Shown here: piece after piece, positions 7,162-13,988 of the stretch
How positions within the stretch are numbered: position 1 is the stretch's first letter
How the letters are laid out: each line of letters starts with the position of its first letter
Source: Halieaceae bacterium
GTDB taxonomy: Bacteria; Pseudomonadota; Gammaproteobacteria; Pseudomonadales; Halieaceae
Assembly: GCA_902613175.1 (NCBI GenBank)
Contig: CACMGJ010000008.1
Location: 1 to 64,000 of the forward strand
Direction: 5' to 3'
Length of the DNA stretch: 64,000 nucleotides
The notes under the pieces: generated by a model
The model's database searches: none
Told to the model about the DNA's origin: nothing
What the model saw: the letters and a program-made list of their open reading frames with translations, nothing else
Program-made: the position numbers and the translations under genes

Positions 7162-7272
7162 TCAGGTCTGCTTGCTTTCTTTCTGGCTTGCGAAAAAACG
7201 CTGGCTAGTGATAAGAAGCCACAAAATTATGAGGACGGTAGATCCTTCAAATAGGCCGAAAAATAGAGTGAC
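7162..7272 (-). other. In-frame transmembrane frame after the cNMP-protein stop
   Basis: Directly after the TAA of the cyclic-nucleotide-binding gene the same frame stays open for 36 codons and encodes a hydrophobic helix (STVLIILWLLITS) and a basic tail (KESKQT). It has no ATG, GTG or upstream TTG start. It could be a decayed C-terminal membrane anchor or chance. Confidence 0.3.
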
Positions 7273-8076
7273 TTAACTTACTCTACCTGATGTTTGATGA
7301 CCGTCACCCAACGCCCTTTTTATCAGGCCCTTTACGACTCCTTTGAGACCAGGACTCAACTGCGAAAATGCTTGATATGCGGCATCACCATCGATTGATA
7401 GGGCGTTGGCCGAACCATGGAGCTCAAAGGCGTCGTTTGAAGGGACATCAGCAATAGCCTCGGCCAAGCCCAAGATGCCGCCGCGTCGCAGTATGACGGT
7501 AGACCCACTCTTCCTTATTGCTACCTCTCCATCGGTGATCACTATGCCCCTACCAGTTTTTAGGATGTCACTCAGGGTTCCGTTATCTGATACATAAACT
7601 GAGTTCAATGCTCTGTTACCCTCTAGGGCCTGAAGTGCAAGTGCTCCCGGAGAATTTGGCTCAAGATTAAACTCGGCCTGACTTATAGAGTTTTCGATCA
7701 TCTCTGTTACAAAATTCTTTTGGAGTAGCTGCAAAGTGAGCGCATCAAAAGCGCTCTTGAGCCTGGGAGAGGCGCTGTCAATCTCACTGGCCAACATATT
7801 TGCTGGTATTTCAAGGCACTTGGAGTCCTGTATTGCCTTCGCAGTTGCCATGCGATGCTTAGTCCCAACCACTGCCTGCTCCCCGAAAGATGTCCCCTTG
7901 GACAAGCTTGCAATCAACGTCGATCCGTCTGAGACGTAGATACCCATTTCACCTTCAAGAATGACGAATACTGAGCTCGCTCGGTCTCCCTGTTCAAACA
8001 AAGTAGCCCCAGCGGGAATAGTTAATTCATTTAGTTTTGGGTTGTTGGCGGATGGTGCTGAGGTAATGCTTGACAC
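7273..8076 (-). CDS. Cyclic-nucleotide-binding protein without DNA-binding domain
   Basis: 267 residues starting at GTG 8076, with AAGGA seven bases upstream. Residues 12-115 form a cNMP-binding (CAP_ED) domain whose phosphate-binding cassette is intact in its key residues: SFGEQ (G65, E66 for ribose) and HRMATA (R75 for the cyclic phosphate). Residues about 160-245 look like a second, degenerate copy (TGRGIVITDGEVAIRKSG...RRGGILGLAE). There is no helix-turn-helix, so it is not a Crp-type regulator. It more likely passes a cAMP signal by protein contact. It is transcribed away from the Sia-like operon, with a shared 380-bp upstream region. The predicted cyclase at 12179-13210 would supply its ligand. 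That link is inference from proximity. Confidence 0.8.
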   Translation of the reverse strand: MSSITSAPSANNPKLNELTIPAGATLFEQGDRASSVFVILEGEMGIYVSDGSTLIASLSKGTSFGEQAVVGTKHRMATAKAIQDSKCLEIPANMLASEIDSASPRLKSAFDALTLQLLQKNFVTEMIENSISQAEFNLEPNSPGALALQALEGNRALNSVYVSDNGTLSDILKTGRGIVITDGEVAIRKSGSTVILRRGGILGLAEAIADVPSNDAFELHGSANALSIDGDAAYQAFSQLSPGLKGVVKGLIKRALGDGHQTSGRVS

Positions 8077-8458
8077 AAGAAATCCTTTTTGTGGGTTCGG
8101 CAGACATCAAAATGTAGGCTCCTACGTTACTTGCAAGAGAGCTCCAAGGAGTAAAGCACGACACGACATTGATGCAAGCTTTTTTGTCTCGAAATAAAGA
8201 GCAGTATTTATTTACAGCGACACGGCCTACTCATGAGTCTCGACTAGTGAAAACTGCTAGATTAAAGGTTTTGCCGCTTACCGCTTTATTTCACTAAAGT
8301 AACATCAAGCGCATGGGTGAATAGCGTTAATAGATCAATTATGGTGCCCGCGGCCCTTGACTTTATTTACTAGGTTGTCATTGTGTGGCGCGAGCATCAT
8401 AAAAATGTAAAGAACAATCGATAGCTTCAAGCAAACAGCTGCTTAGGGGTCAGCTTTT
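8077..8458. other. Divergent intergenic region
   Basis: About 380 bases shared by the cNMP-binding gene (minus) and the TonB-domain/Sia operon (plus). No coding frame. I found no clear TGTGA-N6-TCACA site on inspection. Confidence 0.5.
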
Positions 8459-8842
8459 ATGAAAAGAAAACTTGTGAATTCAGTTCTCGGTATGGCGGTG
8501 GCGATGACGGTGCTAGTGGCACCATCCTCATGGGCGCAACAGTACGTGACCGGTACGTCTCCTTCAGGCGCGGAAGTGAAGGTCTCAATAAAACGTACGC
8601 CTGCTCTGGAATATCCACGCAGAGCAATGCGCCTGGGCGTTGAGGGGTTTGTAAAGGTTGGGTTTGATATCTCAGAGAACGGCAGGCCTTGGAATATCGT
8701 GGTTGAGGATAGTCAGCCCAAGCGTATGTTTGACAAGTCGGCTACCAAATTGGTCAAAGGCATTCGATTTGAGGTTCCAGAAGAAAATGGTGAGGTGGTG
8801 GGATTGACCGGAGTGTCAATGACGATAAGTTTCGCACTGTGA
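8459..8842 (+). CDS. Periplasmic TonB C-terminal-domain protein
   Basis: 127 residues with a signal peptide (ends PSSWA-QQ). Residues about 45-127 match the TonB C-terminal fold: PALEYPRRAMRLGVEGFVKVGFDISENGRPWNIVVEDSQP, with the conserved YP...A...G.V.V.F.I...G. There is no N-terminal membrane helix or Pro-rich spacer, so it is a stand-alone periplasmic domain rather than an energy-transducing TonB. Fifty-three bases separate it from the siaA-like gene, so it is likely the first gene of that operon. It may sense the envelope or contact the sensor domain of the phosphatase (inference). Confidence 0.75.
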   Translation: MKRKLVNSVLGMAVAMTVLVAPSSWAQQYVTGTSPSGAEVKVSIKRTPALEYPRRAMRLGVEGFVKVGFDISENGRPWNIVVEDSQPKRMFDKSATKLVKGIRFEVPEENGEVVGLTGVSMTISFAL

Positions 8843-8895
8843 TGTATCTCGAGATAGTCAAATATGCAAAAGAAATCCTCTAAGGAGACGAGCCG

Positions 8896-11166
8896 GTGAC
8901 GATTAAGGCACGCTTACTCTTAATATTAGTTGGCGGTATTCTGCTGCTTTTCGGCGCCAGTTTTTACTCCGACCAACAATTAAGTGAGGCAAATGCTAGC
9001 TACAACGCAGAGGCATCTATAACTTCATACACTTCGGCGTGGTTCGGAAGTCTTGATGGCGGTTATGTAAACAACCTTGAAGTCTACGATCCCACTGACG
9101 GCTCTTTCTCAAATATCGATTTCTGGGACTTTGAAAAAGACCCTTACACGGATGGAGACACGAACCCACTTCACGCTGCATTTAGGGACGGGAATGAGCA
9201 GTCGGTAAGTGATTTTTTGGATGAAGTGTTCCTGGATGCAATCGACAACGAGGCGATAACGTTCGTGACCGCTTATGCAGCCAATGGGCAGCGTTACTAC
9301 TGCAACTCGAGCTTGTATTTGGTCGGTGCAGATCCGTGCTCAGAGGATGCGAGTCCGGATTATTTAGATGATTTTGACGGTTTGTTTTCCGCTGTAGGAC
9401 GAGGCTCAACGCGAAGGATTTCCCTGATAACAGATACGACGGGGGAGCTTCCAGTGTCTGTCAATGACACGATGGCTTTTGGCCTTGAAATGCCAGCAGA
9501 AGACGCATCTGGGGAGTCACAAACCGTTGGTATGATTATCTTAGGAATCAACATCGTCGACGGTCTCGAAATGTTTGCAGAGAATTTTGAGATTGAGACA
9601 GCGATCGCGATACAAGACGATGTGATCACGGTTTATGACTATTACGAAGAAGAATTGCCTGAGGGTTTGAGTGGATTAATCGAATCTGATCTCAGTGCCT
9701 CTCGGGCCGAGGGATATACCTACAGCACCATTGTGCCCGAGTTGAAGCATAGAGCTACCTCAATACCCTTTAGTCGTGAGACCAGGGCAAGCGAGGTTCG
9801 GCTTCTGATATTTGATGATCAGACGGAACTGATCGAGGCCCTTGAACAGTCCAGTTTTCAAAATCAGCTTTCATTTGCTCTGGTTGGTGGGGCAATCCTG
9901 TTGGTGGTTTTTTCCATAACGACAGTCTCGTTCAATCGAATCAATAGCTCGATCTTAGCGCTGGAAAAAATTGAAAGGGGAGAGCTAGAGAAAACCGACG
10001 ACAACGACTACACATTATTCACGTCTGACAATGACGAAGTGAGTAGGCTGCAGCGGTCGATAGAAGAGTACCGAGAGCATCGAATTGAGGCTGAGTCTCA
10101 AAGAAAAGAGCGTTCGCGACGCCGGGATGAGCGAGATAGCATTATGTTTGAGAAGATGTCTGTGCTGTCGCAGCAGCTTGAAGGTAATGCGCGAGATATG
10201 CTCGTCCAAGAAATAATGGAAATGAGAGATAAGCTGTCATCTGGCAACGACGAGGATAAAGAACAGGCATCGATTGAAATGATGTCGCGAGCGTTCTCAA
10301 AAATGTCTGAGGAAGTTTCTACATTGATCGACGCCAGAACTCAGGAGCTGGTGGTGGCGCGTGATGAGATAAGTAGCTCGATCCGCTACGCAGCTAAGCT
10401 TCAGAAAACCCTCCTACCAAAGTCATATCCGGGTGATATCGAAATAGAGGTCGAGTGGAGACCCCGTGACTTGGTTGGTGGCGATATTTATTTCATCAAA
10501 GATTTTCCTGATAGAGTCTACATTGCTGTTGTTGATTGCACTGGTCATGGTGTGCCGGGTGCTTTTCTTTCAATCATAGCTCGCAGTCACTTGGATAAAG
10601 CTATTCGCGAGGACGGGGATCAAACAGCAGGAGAGTATCTATCTGAAGTAAATGCGCTTCTCCGTGCGACGCTGAGCAGGGCCGATCAGAGCAACACAAA
10701 TGAAGAAGGCTTCGATGGAGGAGTTTGTATTTACAGACGAGAATCCAGAACCCTTGAGTTTGCAGGAGCAAAAGCATCTTTGTTTAACGTTGATGGTCAA
10801 GACGCCAGTGAGGTTGGAGGTGACAGGAAGTCAGTGGGTTCGAGTAGAATTCCAGACGGATTCCAATACTCTACGCATTACGTGAACAGCCCGAGCGGTG
10901 CTTTTGTAATGCTCACAGATGGGATTACGGATGTGATGAGTCCCGAAGAAAGGCCTGTGGCCTTCGGGAGACGTAGGGTTCTTCGCATACTCCGAGATTC
11001 AAAGAATGCAACGCCGAGTAATATTGTAAAAGAAATCATTTCTAGTGTTGATTTGTATCGAGGCAACGCGCCCTTGCGGGATGATTTAACTTTACTCGCC
11101 TTCTCTCTGGAGGACCCCACCCCAGCGACTGAAAACTTAGCGATTAGTGGAGAATCGAAAGGATGA
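8896..11166 (+). CDS. siaA: SiaA-like membrane sensor with SpoIIE/PP2C phosphatase domain
   Basis: 756 residues from GTG 8896, with AAGGAG upstream. One helix lies at residues 6-24, a large periplasmic sensor region at about 25-320 (containing two Cys), and a second helix at about 325-347. A HAMP-like and coiled-coil linker rich in Arg and Glu follows, then a SpoIIE/PP2C serine/threonine phosphatase at about 500-745. The metal-binding Asp residues are present: VGGD (533), VDCTGHGVPGA (547), LTDGITD (675) and RDDLTL (729-730). In Pseudomonas, SiaA dephosphorylates SiaC in response to an outside signal. The stop overlaps the SiaC-like start by 4 bp, so the two are coupled. The ligand is unknown. 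Confidence 0.85.
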   Translation: MTIKARLLLILVGGILLLFGASFYSDQQLSEANASYNAEASITSYTSAWFGSLDGGYVNNLEVYDPTDGSFSNIDFWDFEKDPYTDGDTNPLHAAFRDGNEQSVSDFLDEVFLDAIDNEAITFVTAYAANGQRYYCNSSLYLVGADPCSEDASPDYLDDFDGLFSAVGRGSTRRISLITDTTGELPVSVNDTMAFGLEMPAEDASGESQTVGMIILGINIVDGLEMFAENFEIETAIAIQDDVITVYDYYEEELPEGLSGLIESDLSASRAEGYTYSTIVPELKHRATSIPFSRETRASEVRLLIFDDQTELIEALEQSSFQNQLSFALVGGAILLVVFSITTVSFNRINSSILALEKIERGELEKTDDNDYTLFTSDNDEVSRLQRSIEEYREHRIEAESQRKERSRRRDERDSIMFEKMSVLSQQLEGNARDMLVQEIMEMRDKLSSGNDEDKEQASIEMMSRAFSKMSEEVSTLIDARTQELVVARDEISSSIRYAAKLQKTLLPKSYPGDIEIEVEWRPRDLVGGDIYFIKDFPDRVYIAVVDCTGHGVPGAFLSIIARSHLDKAIREDGDQTAGEYLSEVNALLRATLSRADQSNTNEEGFDGGVCIYRRESRTLEFAGAKASLFNVDGQDASEVGGDRKSVGSSRIPDGFQYSTHYVNSPSGAFVMLTDGITDVMSPEERPVAFGRRRVLRILRDSKNATPSNIVKEIISSVDLYRGNAPLRDDLTLLAFSLEDPTPATENLAISGESKG

Positions 11167-11537
11167 GGTTTGAAAAAACGCAACGCACCCCCCTAGTGGA
11201 AATGAGCAACTCTCACTGCCTTATTGTTGGAGAGTGCTATCCAGAAAATATTTCCGAGTGGTCGCAACCCGTATTTGCGGCGCTCGAGGATTGTGTTGGA
11301 ACACAAGACTCATTTGATGTTGATATCGAGCTTTACTACTTCAACAGCTCGTCCGCAAAGTTCCTTTTTGATTTCTTTGAATTCCTTGATGACAAAGCAG
11401 ATGAGGGGGTCAGTATCGTGATTAATTGGCGCTACAGGGCAGAGGACGACACGATGCAAGAGGCTGGCGAGGATTTTGAGGAAGACATTGAAAACTGCAC
11501 CTATAACCTTGTGGAGGCGGAGTCTGCAGACGCATAA
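11163..11537 (+). CDS. siaC: SiaC-like partner-switch phosphoprotein
   Basis: 124 residues of the SiaC (DUF1987) family. It has the typical order TPLVEMS...LIVGECYPENISEW, then YYFNSSSAKFLFDFFEFL and an acidic C-terminus. NSSSAK (61-66) is the segment that in SiaC homologues is phosphorylated by SiaB and dephosphorylated by SiaA; here the acceptor would be a Ser rather than the Thr of P. aeruginosa SiaC. In P. aeruginosa, unphosphorylated SiaC binds and activates the diguanylate cyclase SiaD. No GGDEF gene is present here, and the nearest nucleotide cyclase is the class III enzyme convergent with the operon. A target switch is therefore a reasonable but untested idea. Confidence 0.85.
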   Translation: MRFEKTQRTPLVEMSNSHCLIVGECYPENISEWSQPVFAALEDCVGTQDSFDVDIELYYFNSSSAKFLFDFFEFLDDKADEGVSIVINWRYRAEDDTMQEAGEDFEEDIENCTYNLVEAESADA

Positions 11538-11602
11538 ACCAGGAAACTAACTGATCCTGATTCAACACAAAATTCCTCGGACGAGAGGAAAAGGTAATAA
11601 AC

Positions 11603-12136
11603 ATGACAAATCTTGACACTGTGGGCCTTCATGACTTCATGCAACGGCGAAAGACGCTATTTTGCTATTCAGGGCCACTCACTGAAGAATTGCTCACCAC
11701 CATATCGAACCCGGTCAGGCATCAGCTCACAGAGAACGAAACTCCTGAAGCCATCGCTAACCGGGTGTTTGGAGTTTTTATTGAACAAGCCCAGAATATA
11801 ATTAGGTATTCGTCGCAAAAAACTAAGGCGGCGGGTGATAGTGTTGGCACTATCGCCATAAGTTACATAGACGAGACTTTCTTGATTGAAGCTGTTAACC
11901 AAATTGACTCAACACAGAAAAGTGCGCTAGAGAAAACATTGCTCGAACTGAGTCTGAAAGATCAGAAAGACTTGCGTAAATTGTACCGACAAAGACTTAA
12001 GGATGGTCCCCCTGAGGATTCTCAAGGTGCGGGTCTTGGGTTCATCGAAATGGCTCGAAGAGTTAAGCGGTTTGAATTTGACTTTAACGATTCGAACTCT
12101 AATCCTATGTTTGTCTACAGAGGATGGGTTGAGTGA
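11603..12136 (+). CDS. siaB: SiaB-like protein kinase (anti-sigma-kinase-like)
   Basis: 177 residues of the SiaB family (DUF6272), related to GHKL/HATPase anti-sigma kinases. It has GPLTEELLTTI near the start, a helix FGVFIEQAQNIIRYS that carries the N-box-type Glu and Asn, and GAGLGFIEMARR as the G-box-like element. In Sia systems this protein phosphorylates SiaC and opposes SiaA. It starts 65 bp after siaC, giving the order A-C-B rather than the A-B-C of Pseudomonas. Its stop is 42 bp from the stop of the convergent cyclase gene. Confidence 0.8.
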   Translation: MTNLDTVGLHDFMQRRKTLFCYSGPLTEELLTTISNPVRHQLTENETPEAIANRVFGVFIEQAQNIIRYSSQKTKAAGDSVGTIAISYIDETFLIEAVNQIDSTQKSALEKTLLELSLKDQKDLRKLYRQRLKDGPPEDSQGAGLGFIEMARRVKRFEFDFNDSNSNPMFVYRGWVE

Positions 12137-12178
12137 GGCGAGTCGCGAAGCCCATAAATTCGTTTGTCATTTTATAAA

Positions 12179-13210
12179 TCACAACAAGCGGCCCGAGCTT
12201 GGTGGCGAGCTTTTTGTGAGTTCGTCGAGTAGAAATTCGGCGCTTCGTTTTGTAGCTTCCATTTGCTCATCTGTCATCGACTCCAAATTCATTGTGAAGG
12301 ATCGGTCTCCGAGCGTTAGGTTGACCGACCTTGACTCAATGACACGAATCACTCGCCGAGCTCTATATTCACCGATGCCTTTCAAATGTATGGGGGGTAG
12401 TTCGTCTGCTTCAATGTCCTCCTTTACTAAGTTATAGGTATCTTCAGAAATTAATATCGAACCATTTTCAGCAGCAGACTCTAGGCGAGATGCTCTATTT
12501 ACCGCCGCTCCAATTGCGGTGTAGTCAAGTCGTGATTCACATCCGAAGTTACCTACGGTTGCAAAACCCGTGTCTATTCCTATGCGCATTTGCAATTGAT
12601 CCTTGAGGCCATACTTTATCCACTGATCAGAGAGGTTATCCAACTCATGAATCATTTCTAAAGCCATTCGTACACATTTGGAGGCGTCTTCTTTTATGCC
12701 ATCAGACTCTGGATCACCAAAGAACAGCATAATTCCATCTCCAATGTATTTGTCGATGGTTGCTCCATATTTGAGAGCGATGTTAGTCATGGTCTCGAGA
12801 TATAAGTTCAGTAGATCTGTAACGTCCTCTGACTCCATATTTTCGACAAAATCAGTGAAGCCGCAAAGATCAGAAAAAAAGACAGTGAGCTTTTTACGTT
12901 TGCTTACGCGAGCGGCTGTTTCTTGGGAACCCGAAAAGATTGAATTGTAGAGCTGTGGAGAGAGAAACTTTGATAGCTGTGCCGACATCCCTTCTAGTTG
13001 AGCGTTGGTCTCTTGGGCTTCTTCCTTGAGTTCATTTAGGCGTCGCTCGTTTTTATCACTGAGTTTGATTATCTTACGAGTCGTGCGAAGTAATTTCCCA
13101 TAGTTGGATACGAGTTCGGAGTAGTCAGTCGCTGACGGTGAACCAGTTGAACTTAATTCCTTGGACTGCTCTAAAATCTTGGTTTCCTGGATAAAGATAT
13201 CATTTGACAT
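12179..13210 (-). CDS. Class III adenylate cyclase (soluble, coiled-coil N-terminus)
   Basis: 343 residues. Residues 30-95 form a coiled coil ending in a signalling-helix motif (KFLSPQLYNSIFSG). The catalytic domain (105-285) has every residue needed: metal Asp D114 (FFSDLCGFTD) and D158 (KYIGDG), substrate Lys K154, Thr T231 at the second specificity site (LDYTAIG), and transition-state N238 and R242 (VNRASR). The Lys plus Thr pair is that of class IIIb adenylate cyclases, not guanylate cyclases. No membrane segment. It sits convergent with the Sia-like operon and downstream of the HD gene on the same strand (133-bp gap). It is likely the cAMP source for the island. Control by SiaC would be new and is inference. 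Confidence 0.88.
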   Translation of the reverse strand: MSNDIFIQETKILEQSKELSSTGSPSATDYSELVSNYGKLLRTTRKIIKLSDKNERRLNELKEEAQETNAQLEGMSAQLSKFLSPQLYNSIFSGSQETAARVSKRKKLTVFFSDLCGFTDFVENMESEDVTDLLNLYLETMTNIALKYGATIDKYIGDGIMLFFGDPESDGIKEDASKCVRMALEMIHELDNLSDQWIKYGLKDQLQMRIGIDTGFATVGNFGCESRLDYTAIGAAVNRASRLESAAENGSILISEDTYNLVKEDIEADELPPIHLKGIGEYRARRVIRVIESRSVNLTLGDRSFTMNLESMTDEQMEATKRSAEFLLDELTKSSPPSSGRLL

Positions 13211-13343
13211 TAATAGGATTCTCCGTCCTTAACTTATGGCCGTCGCTATGGGCTAGATAATGTGTTTTTTTCTATGTATATCGCTTGCTTAGCTTTAAAA
13301 ACTTTATAGATATCCGAGGGTTACTCGCCGGATCTCCGAGTAG

Positions 13344-13988
13344 TCATTGATTTAGCCTTAATTTTAAGTCGGCTATGTTTTGTTGCTTTTGTTGCTCATA
13401 CAATTGGCACCCAACATCACTTTGCCAAGAGTGACGATGCATTAACCCAAGCGATATTGGTAGGAAATCGTAGAAGGGTATCCCGGCCTCGCTGGCAACG
13501 GCTTCAGTCTGCTCCCAAAAGCACTGCCTGCCTAAATTTGACAGATCAGCATCCAAAAGATAAGGCGACAGTTCTGTGTTACTTATTTGTGCGCAATCAT
13601 CCATCAACAGCGTGGTATCGAGAATCATATGTTTCACAATCTTAATTTCACGCTTGGTGTACCCACCTGTAGTGGACATCGCTTTCGCAGCAAGCTCAGC
13701 ACCGATTGGCTCATTGAGCGCTTTCTGATGTAGGAATCCAGCATCATGATAAATGGCGGCAATGATGAGCAGCTCTCTCTCCCTTTCTGAAAGTTGTGCC
13801 AAGTCGGCTAGACAAAGTACTTGCTCTAACACGTCTAATGTGTGCTCAACGTTATGATAGTCGAGCGAGGAATGAAGTTCCTCTTTGAGAGTATCGAGAA
13901 TACTTGTCATAGATTCAGGCAGCGCCTGAAGCTCGAGTCGTAACCTATCTCCACAACCTTCAATAACCTGTTTCAATTTAATGTCCAT
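13344..13988 (-). CDS. HD-domain phosphohydrolase with PDE-like YHNxxH motif
   Basis: 214 residues, soluble. Metal ligands of the HD superfamily are visible: YHNVEHTLDV (H45, H49), AIYHDAG (H81, D82), VKHMILD (H120) and LLDADLSNLG (D146 and D148). The YHNxxH-T-x-DV string closely resembles the signature of class I 3',5'-cyclic-nucleotide phosphodiesterases, although the protein is shorter than that family's catalytic domain and lacks the second HD-x-x-H string. Lying upstream of an adenylate cyclase on the same strand, it may hydrolyse the cyclase product. Another nucleotide or metabolite phosphohydrolase role is equally open from sequence. Confidence 0.75.
   Translation of the reverse strand: MDIKLKQVIEGCGDRLRLELQALPESMTSILDTLKEELHSSLDYHNVEHTLDVLEQVLCLADLAQLSERERELLIIAAIYHDAGFLHQKALNEPIGAELAAKAMSTTGGYTKREIKIVKHMILDTTLLMDDCAQISNTELSPYLLDADLSNLGRQCFWEQTEAVASEAGIPFYDFLPISLGLMHRHSWQSDVGCQLYEQQKQQNIADLKLRLNQ

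Follow-up and report, generated by a model that had tools for sequence, protein, structure and literature searches.

This report concerns a gene cluster in a 64,000-nucleotide stretch of DNA from a Halieaceae bacterium (GenBank assembly GCA_902613175.1, contig CACMGJ010000008.1, positions 1 to 64,000 of the forward strand; hereafter the window), in which genes resembling siaA, siaC and siaB of the Pseudomonas aeruginosa Sia partner switch, a phosphorylation switch of biofilm control in Pseudomonas, are found next to a class III nucleotide cyclase, the very probable target of the SiaC-like protein. The source is a metagenome-assembled genome (MAG) of 1.9 Mb that is 58.6% complete, and the window is part of its contig C8. 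An earlier note had described the siaA-siaC-siaB/cyclase region from its letters, and the open reading frames (ORFs) and domains found here with the ORF list, Pfam and NCBIfam match that description. On the plus strand, a TonB_C gene is followed by the siaA-like, siaC-like and siaB-like genes, with a 4-base overlap between siaA and siaC, and these genes are faced by the cyclase gene on the minus strand. The core features are as follows, where PSSM stands for the position-specific scoring matrix described below.

8459..8842, plus strand: small TonB_C-domain protein of 127 amino acids with a hydrophobic N-terminus (59.6 bits), a probable periplasmic sensor partner
8896..11166, plus strand: siaA-like sensor phosphatase of 756 amino acids with a SpoIIE domain (NCBIfam SiaA profile, 174.4 bits)
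11163..11537, plus strand: siaC-like partner-switch phosphoprotein of 124 amino acids, placed in the cyclase-linked clade by the tree (PF09345, 100.6 bits, cut-off 24.5)
11346..11348, plus strand: codon of SiaC Ser62, the equivalent of the phosphorylated Thr68 of P. aeruginosa SiaC
11603..12136, plus strand: siaB-like kinase of 177 amino acids with E61 present (NCBIfam SiaB_fam_kinase NF038262, 144.8 bits, subfamily cut-off 85)
12179..13210, minus strand: class III cyclase of 343 amino acids with an N-terminal predicted docking helix (PF00211, 97.5 bits)
13019..13102, minus strand: cyclase residues 37-64, predicted SiaC-docking motif YGKLLRTTRKIIKLSDKNERRLNELKEE (PSSM score 21.6)

The best PDB match of the cyclase is CyaB (3r5g, E 2.9e-57), and the six catalytic residues listed in the earlier note, D114, K154, D158, T231, N238 and R242, are all there. 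The same residues are kept in 54 of 54 aligned cyclases, bar one X at K154 (the truncated cyclase of locus L083 was left out of the alignment). We take these residues to have metal, adenine and transition-state roles, and their types presumably assign the enzyme to the adenylate-cyclase class. Judged from the conserved residues and the similarity to CyaB, the product of the cyclase is probably cyclic AMP (cAMP) rather than cyclic di-GMP.

Among PDB entries, the SiaC-like protein matches SiaC itself (6kko, E 1.9e-9). In NCBIfam it stays below the SiaC equivalog cut-off (65.1 vs 150 bits), the SiaB-like protein stays below the SiaB equivalog cut-off (84.1 vs 225 bits), and the SiaA-like protein is not an equivalog either, its 174.4 bits falling short of a cut-off of 700 with only the phosphatase half matched. 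This last protein contains two hydrophobic stretches (residues about 1–27 and 323–349), which are probable membrane helices, and its C-terminal SpoIIE domain carries GGD, DCTGHG, TDG and DD motifs. For the P. aeruginosa proteins, the available parts of two papers give T68 as the phosphorylated site of SiaC (PMC8457831, PMC7647112) and the Glu61 position of SiaB as predicted catalytic (PMC7647112).

Linkage of siaC to the cyclase was followed at several taxonomic ranges. In the order survey, SiaC was present in 22 of 293 genomes, own included, and the 20 stretches that were fetched (the source genome and G179 left out) comprised 15 with siaABC and a GGEEF protein, 4 with siaABC and a window-like cyclase, and one with neither. 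This last locus (L030 in genome G090) encodes SiaA-SiaB-SiaC with SiaC on a very long branch, and a GGEEF protein or class III cyclase was not detected nearby. The class survey gave SiaC in 10 of 369 genomes, again with the source counted, and neighbours were looked at for one locus, L119. A scan of the collection at one genome per species (84,980 species), using five cyclase-linked SiaC queries, returned 70 loci. In a tree of 88 SiaC sequences, from which the fragments L115 and L117 and locus L116 (no SiaC ORF) were left out, the cyclase-linked SiaCs form one clade of 59 rows with support 100/99. The seeds of this clade were picked for their cyclase neighbour, and the clade itself is defined by sequence. 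A cyclase lies within about 5 kb in 57 of the 59 rows, window included, and the contigs of L053 and L087 stop inside siaB.

Leaving out the window and the contigs counted twice (L046, L047 and L048) gives a set of 55 loci, and siaC-siaB is accompanied by the cyclase in 53 of them, 47 being convergent (within 218 bases of siaB) and 6 co-directional; among the latter, L083 and L096 have the cyclase 2.3 kb away. Of the 55 loci, 32 have the siaA-like gene immediately before siaC and 23 have it elsewhere, and the proximity of siaC and cyclase is kept though orientation and siaA position vary. The closest relative locus, L049 (Halieaceae bacterium MED-G27, OM60/NOR5 clade), has the identical order from the cyclic-nucleotide (cNMP)-binding protein gene on one flank to the glutathione peroxidase (GPx) gene on the other. 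The earlier note had proposed a search for this gene order in relatives, and the order proved to be conserved. Because L049 keeps it and the siaC-siaB-cyclase set recurs so widely in the clade, this gene set is more than a chance assembly. Clade records are named Halieaceae, Porticoccaceae/SAR92, K189A, OM182 and SAR324, and no SiaC relative was found on viral contigs. The labels SAR116 (L071), Opitutia (L058), Betaproteobacteria (L051) and Puniceicoccaceae (L090) may reflect binning errors; the loci on the contigs labelled Opitutia and Betaproteobacteria are Halieaceae-like, which makes such an error probable for these two.

The cyclase of the switch carries an N-terminal stalk, and cyclases with this stalk occur together with SiaC. 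In the family survey (140 genomes), SiaC was found in 17 genomes and the stalk-cyclase in 17, and these genomes are identical. In the order survey the stalk profile matched in 92 of 293 genomes, and only G000, G039, G159, G200 and G222, all of which carry a cyclase-linked SiaC, match it along its full or almost full length. The other 87 match only the later part of the stalk, with best matches that start at position 17 at the earliest (a secondary match in G005 spans 9–55), and this part probably corresponds to the helix that precedes the catalytic domain in CyaB-like cyclases. The phylum survey covered 398 genomes including our own and used the stalk alone as query at E<=1e-10, the seed cyclases having come from SiaC loci. 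Ten genomes matched, and five besides our own match nearly the whole stalk; each of the five has its genes ordered siaB, siaC, cyclase on one strand, and their SiaCs form a second clade with support 99/92. Three genomes with partial stalk matches have no SiaC, and G835, with a match of 44.8 bits over positions 2–62, has two SiaCs on other contigs.

A docking site for SiaC can be sought in this stalk since the crystal structure of SiaC with SiaD shows, according to the available text, that two repeats in the SiaD stalk are bound by SiaC, with Thr68 of SiaC contacting Ser82 and Gln86 (PMC8457831). We built a PSSM from the proximal SiaC-binding repeat of 15 SiaDs and scored the best ungapped position, which has one common stalk register for 52 of the 54 cyclases. 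For the window cyclase the score is 21.6, and all 54 have a median of 17.2 (range 6.5–23.0), to be compared with a mean of 1.1 (sd 3.6, max 15.3) for 333 other ORFs of similar length and with 2.1–10.0 for five other class III cyclases of the source genome. Column-shuffled matrices, applied to 9 sampled cyclases, reached the register in a mean of 0.10 of them and in 5 at most. Thus the PSSM, with its null and other-cyclase controls, points to a predicted SiaC-docking motif in the N-terminal helix of the cyclase. Moreover, hhalign aligned the SiaD repeat with the cyclase stalk at E 6.7e-4, and a hidden Markov model (HMM) of the SiaD repeat reached 20 labelled cyclases at the stalk with E<10. The idea that class III cyclases in general carry the motif was considered and rejected, given the later-part matches in 87 order genomes and the low scores of the other cyclases of the source genome. 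Two docking sites as in SiaD are unsupported.

The earlier note had named a GGDEF partner elsewhere as a finding that would speak against a cyclase target. A Pfam scan of nine ORFs at the locus showed no GGDEF domain, and a genome-wide SiaD-stalk profile found no SiaD in the 22 genomes with a cyclase-linked SiaC (best E 0.003), many of which, the source included, are incomplete. As a control, four SiaD genomes yielded E-values of 1.6e-30 to 3.9e-33 with the same profile, and in 8 of the 22 genomes its top match is the cyclase stalk itself (E 0.003–0.15, overlap by coordinates). A similar stalk also occurs on proteins of another kind. In L114, a hybrid histidine kinase gene directly follows siaC, and the N-terminus of the kinase aligns with residues 23–76 of the window cyclase; in L119, siaC is followed by a gene with the stalk motif (SiaD-repeat HMM, E 4.6e-4), whose product, from a truncated ORF, has Hpt and HATPase matches below the Pfam cut-offs.

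The interface was compared over three SiaC groups. The contact positions Tyr31, Tyr65, Asn67, Ser69 and Asp114 of SiaC are kept in all three, and the phospho-site is Ser in 59 of 59 cyclase-clade rows, whereas each of the 15 SiaD-linked SiaCs from the order has Thr there. This Ser is not specific to cyclase partners, because it is also present in seven GGDEF-linked SiaCs of other phyla. Other positions in cyclase-clade SiaCs have changed, namely Ile71 to Ala, Met75 to Phe or Tyr, Arg103 to Thr, Ser or Ala, and Leu107 to Ala, and on the stalk side Tyr85, Gln86 and Met88 of SiaD are mostly Asn/Ser, Glu and Arg, respectively. We infer from the alignments that the substitutions in SiaC and stalk may be compensating changes.

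On the input side, all 55 loci encode a SiaA-like protein in which the phosphatase motif D-x-(T/S)GHG is present (best SiaA-like ORF per locus). The assignment of the TonB-domain protein to the sensor unit is supported, as the TonB_C gene adjoins siaA directly upstream in 32 of the 55 loci, and 7 others have too little upstream sequence to judge. The sensor of SiaA (residues 39–490) is also similar to that of another cyclase of the source genome (29.7% identity, E 1e-55), a class III enzyme of 697 amino acids encoded beside a TonB_C gene and a TonB-dependent receptor gene. These three genes, in the order TonB-dependent receptor, TonB_C protein and sensor-cyclase, are consecutive on the minus strand of contig C25 (L217:2059-7678). 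Within two switch loci (L067:2226-4834 and L068:2170-4791), a TonB_C gene is directly followed by a fusion of a SiaA-like sensor to a class III cyclase, 720 amino acids in length. The fusions in the source genome and in L067 and L068 therefore indicate that one kind of sensing unit is both cyclase-fused and switch-wired. In L104 and L106, three tandem SiaA-like phosphatase genes precede SiaB-SiaC, and neither a SiaD-like nor a class III cyclase gene was found there with phmmer.

These data suggest the following route. The TonB_C protein and the sensor of SiaA would perceive a signal at the envelope and thereby switch on the SiaA phosphatase; SiaB would phosphorylate Ser62 of SiaC, and SiaA would take the phosphate off. 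Unphosphorylated SiaC would then dock on the cyclase at its N-terminal helix (roughly residues 37–64) and, by analogy with SiaC and SiaD in Pseudomonas, stabilise the active cyclase dimer such that cAMP rises. Because the cyclase has a SiaD-like docking helix and the genes are together in many relatives, we consider it very probable that SiaC docks on the class III cyclase and controls it. The proposal of the earlier note that SiaC acts on an adenylate cyclase is hence well supported at the level of sequence, by linkage, by the docking motif, by the occurrence of both in the same family genomes and by the lack of a detected SiaD. For the sign of this control, activation is the moderately likely outcome.

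Several observations weigh against control of the cyclase by SiaC. G179 has a cyclase-linked SiaC at a contig end and no stalk-cyclase match, the only such genome in the order, and the second SiaC of G875 is encoded on a contig without a reported stalk. The loci come mostly from MAGs or single cells. At the stalk, the two SiaD residues contacted by Thr68 are not strictly kept, the Ser82 position being Asn in 14 of 54 cyclases and the Gln86 position Glu in 49 and Ala in 5. As the register scores reach down to 6.5, the weaker cyclases fall inside the null range of the PSSM; the hhalign probability is just 27%, and single cyclases reach only weak E-values with the HMM (best 0.024). The distal SiaD repeat has no match in the stalk, with the register reached in 14 of 54 cyclases, so that the proximal repeat alone matches. 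The SiaD-stalk profile had no match at E<=1 in five genomes, including our own and its cyclase.

Alternatively, the neighbourhood alone could be conserved, with siaABC and the cyclase passed on as one block and an unlinked target for SiaC. The mostly convergent genes share no transcript and many loci come from related families, which fits such a history, but the proximity survives changes in orientation and siaA position, the motif is on the switch cyclase and scores low in the five other class III cyclases of the same genome, and no SiaD was found in 22 genomes, many of them incomplete; we therefore regard an unlinked target as quite improbable. An opposite sign, in which SiaC inhibits the cyclase or binds it when phosphorylated, concerns the mode of control. 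Sequence does not fix the sign, and interface residues differ between the clades. However, the phospho-site stays Ser or Thr, the neighbours that pack on the stalk in SiaC-SiaD, as described in the available part of PMC8457831, are conserved, and a dimer-stabilising helix would be expected to activate a dimeric cyclase, so that an opposite sign appears unlikely.

Beyond docking and control of the cyclase by SiaC, the earlier note had proposed a self-contained cAMP circuit, in which the SiaC-driven cyclase is joined by an HD protein as cAMP phosphodiesterase and a cNMP-binding protein as receptor. The HD and GPx genes lie upstream of the cyclase on the minus strand, and the cNMP gene lies on the opposite flank, also on the minus strand.

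7273..8076, minus strand: cNMP-binding protein of 267 amino acids with E66 and R75 present (PF00027, 70 bits), a putative cAMP receptor
13344..13988, minus strand: HD-domain protein of 214 amino acids, upstream of the cyclase on the same strand (PF01966, 23.2 bits), a candidate hydrolase

The residues described for both proteins were found as reported, E66 and R75 being intact and YHNVEH lying at residues 44–49 of the HD protein. The window, L049 and L065 each hold the cyclase switch, HD and cNMP genes together. In L049 the cNMP gene is broken up into two ORFs, 91 and 138 amino acids long (L049:4124-4867). Window-type HD proteins occur in 6 of the 55 loci and window-type cNMP proteins in 2. 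A different cNMP_binding protein (c4) is present in 16 loci and an MBL-fold hydrolase (c5) in 12 (fetched stretches; the Pfam assignments of c4 and c5 are based on three members each). The recurrence of c4 and c5 in other lineages suggests that receptor and hydrolase may recur as non-orthologous parts. In L070, L074 and L112, an HDOD protein (Pfam-checked in L070 and L074) is encoded between the MBL-fold hydrolase and the TonB_C gene of the cyclase locus. On the other side, 33 of 55 loci have none of the four genes, some of them on short contigs, and the HD protein itself is barely above the PF01966 cut-off of 22 and below that of PDEase_I (PF00233, 20 bits vs 24.8, over 45 of 238 positions). 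Its profile has weak PDE4-family matches in the PDB, but the best match is BH1327 (E 0.0077), with phosphodiesterases at E 0.011 or worse, and Asn46 of the YHN motif is not conserved in 5 of 7 HD proteins; the HD protein as a clear class I phosphodiesterase is thus unsupported. One other cNMP_binding protein, and no more, was found in the source genome. The complete circuit is therefore a tentative proposition, somewhat on the doubtful side, and a local cAMP receptor and hydrolase are plausible as lineage-specific parts outside the conserved core.

More widely, SiaC (DUF1987) is likely a general plug-in adaptor: its portable docking helix would have been attached in evolution to histidine kinases as well as to diguanylate cyclases and adenylate cyclases of class III, which would allow a single phospho-switch to serve various outputs, cAMP control being its role in several marine lineages. 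If so, protein Ser/Thr partner switching governs cAMP synthesis in marine bacteria and leads from an envelope signal to cAMP by a route absent from the papers searched, and one could predict the targets of DUF1987 proteins by looking for a short motif in the enzyme encoded nearby. It would also raise the question of how a phospho-switch moves between second messengers. To our knowledge, no earlier partner switch controls cAMP. A literature search, in which subscription papers were thinly covered and preprints lay outside, found no paper on SiaC with an adenylate cyclase target, and the available parts of PMC4976288 and PMC9237108 mention adenylate cyclase only in the references or the two-hybrid method.

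Compared with known systems, the locus is close in build to SiaABCD of P. aeruginosa, with which it shares a sensor PP2C phosphatase, a kinase and a DUF1987 phosphoprotein as well as an output cyclase whose helical stalk binds SiaC (predicted here). It differs in that the output is a class III cyclase rather than the GGDEF enzyme SiaD, one docking motif is recognisable instead of two, the phospho-site is Ser rather than Thr, the gene order is A-C-B with a convergent cyclase, and none of the three Sia proteins attains its equivalog cut-off in NCBIfam. Class III adenylate cyclases of the CyaB type (PDB 3r5g) are alike in the catalytic domain, whereas in the other order-survey matches, presumed CyaB-like by size, the stalk profile is matched only in its later section ahead of the catalytic domain. 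In HsbA-HsbD of P. aeruginosa and BgrV-BgrR of Sinorhizobium, as far as the available text of PMC8457831 describes them, a STAS-domain phosphoprotein controls a diguanylate cyclase. Control of a second-messenger cyclase by a phosphoprotein (predicted for the present locus) is thus the common feature, with DUF1987 in place of STAS and a class III cyclase in place of a diguanylate cyclase in the system described here.

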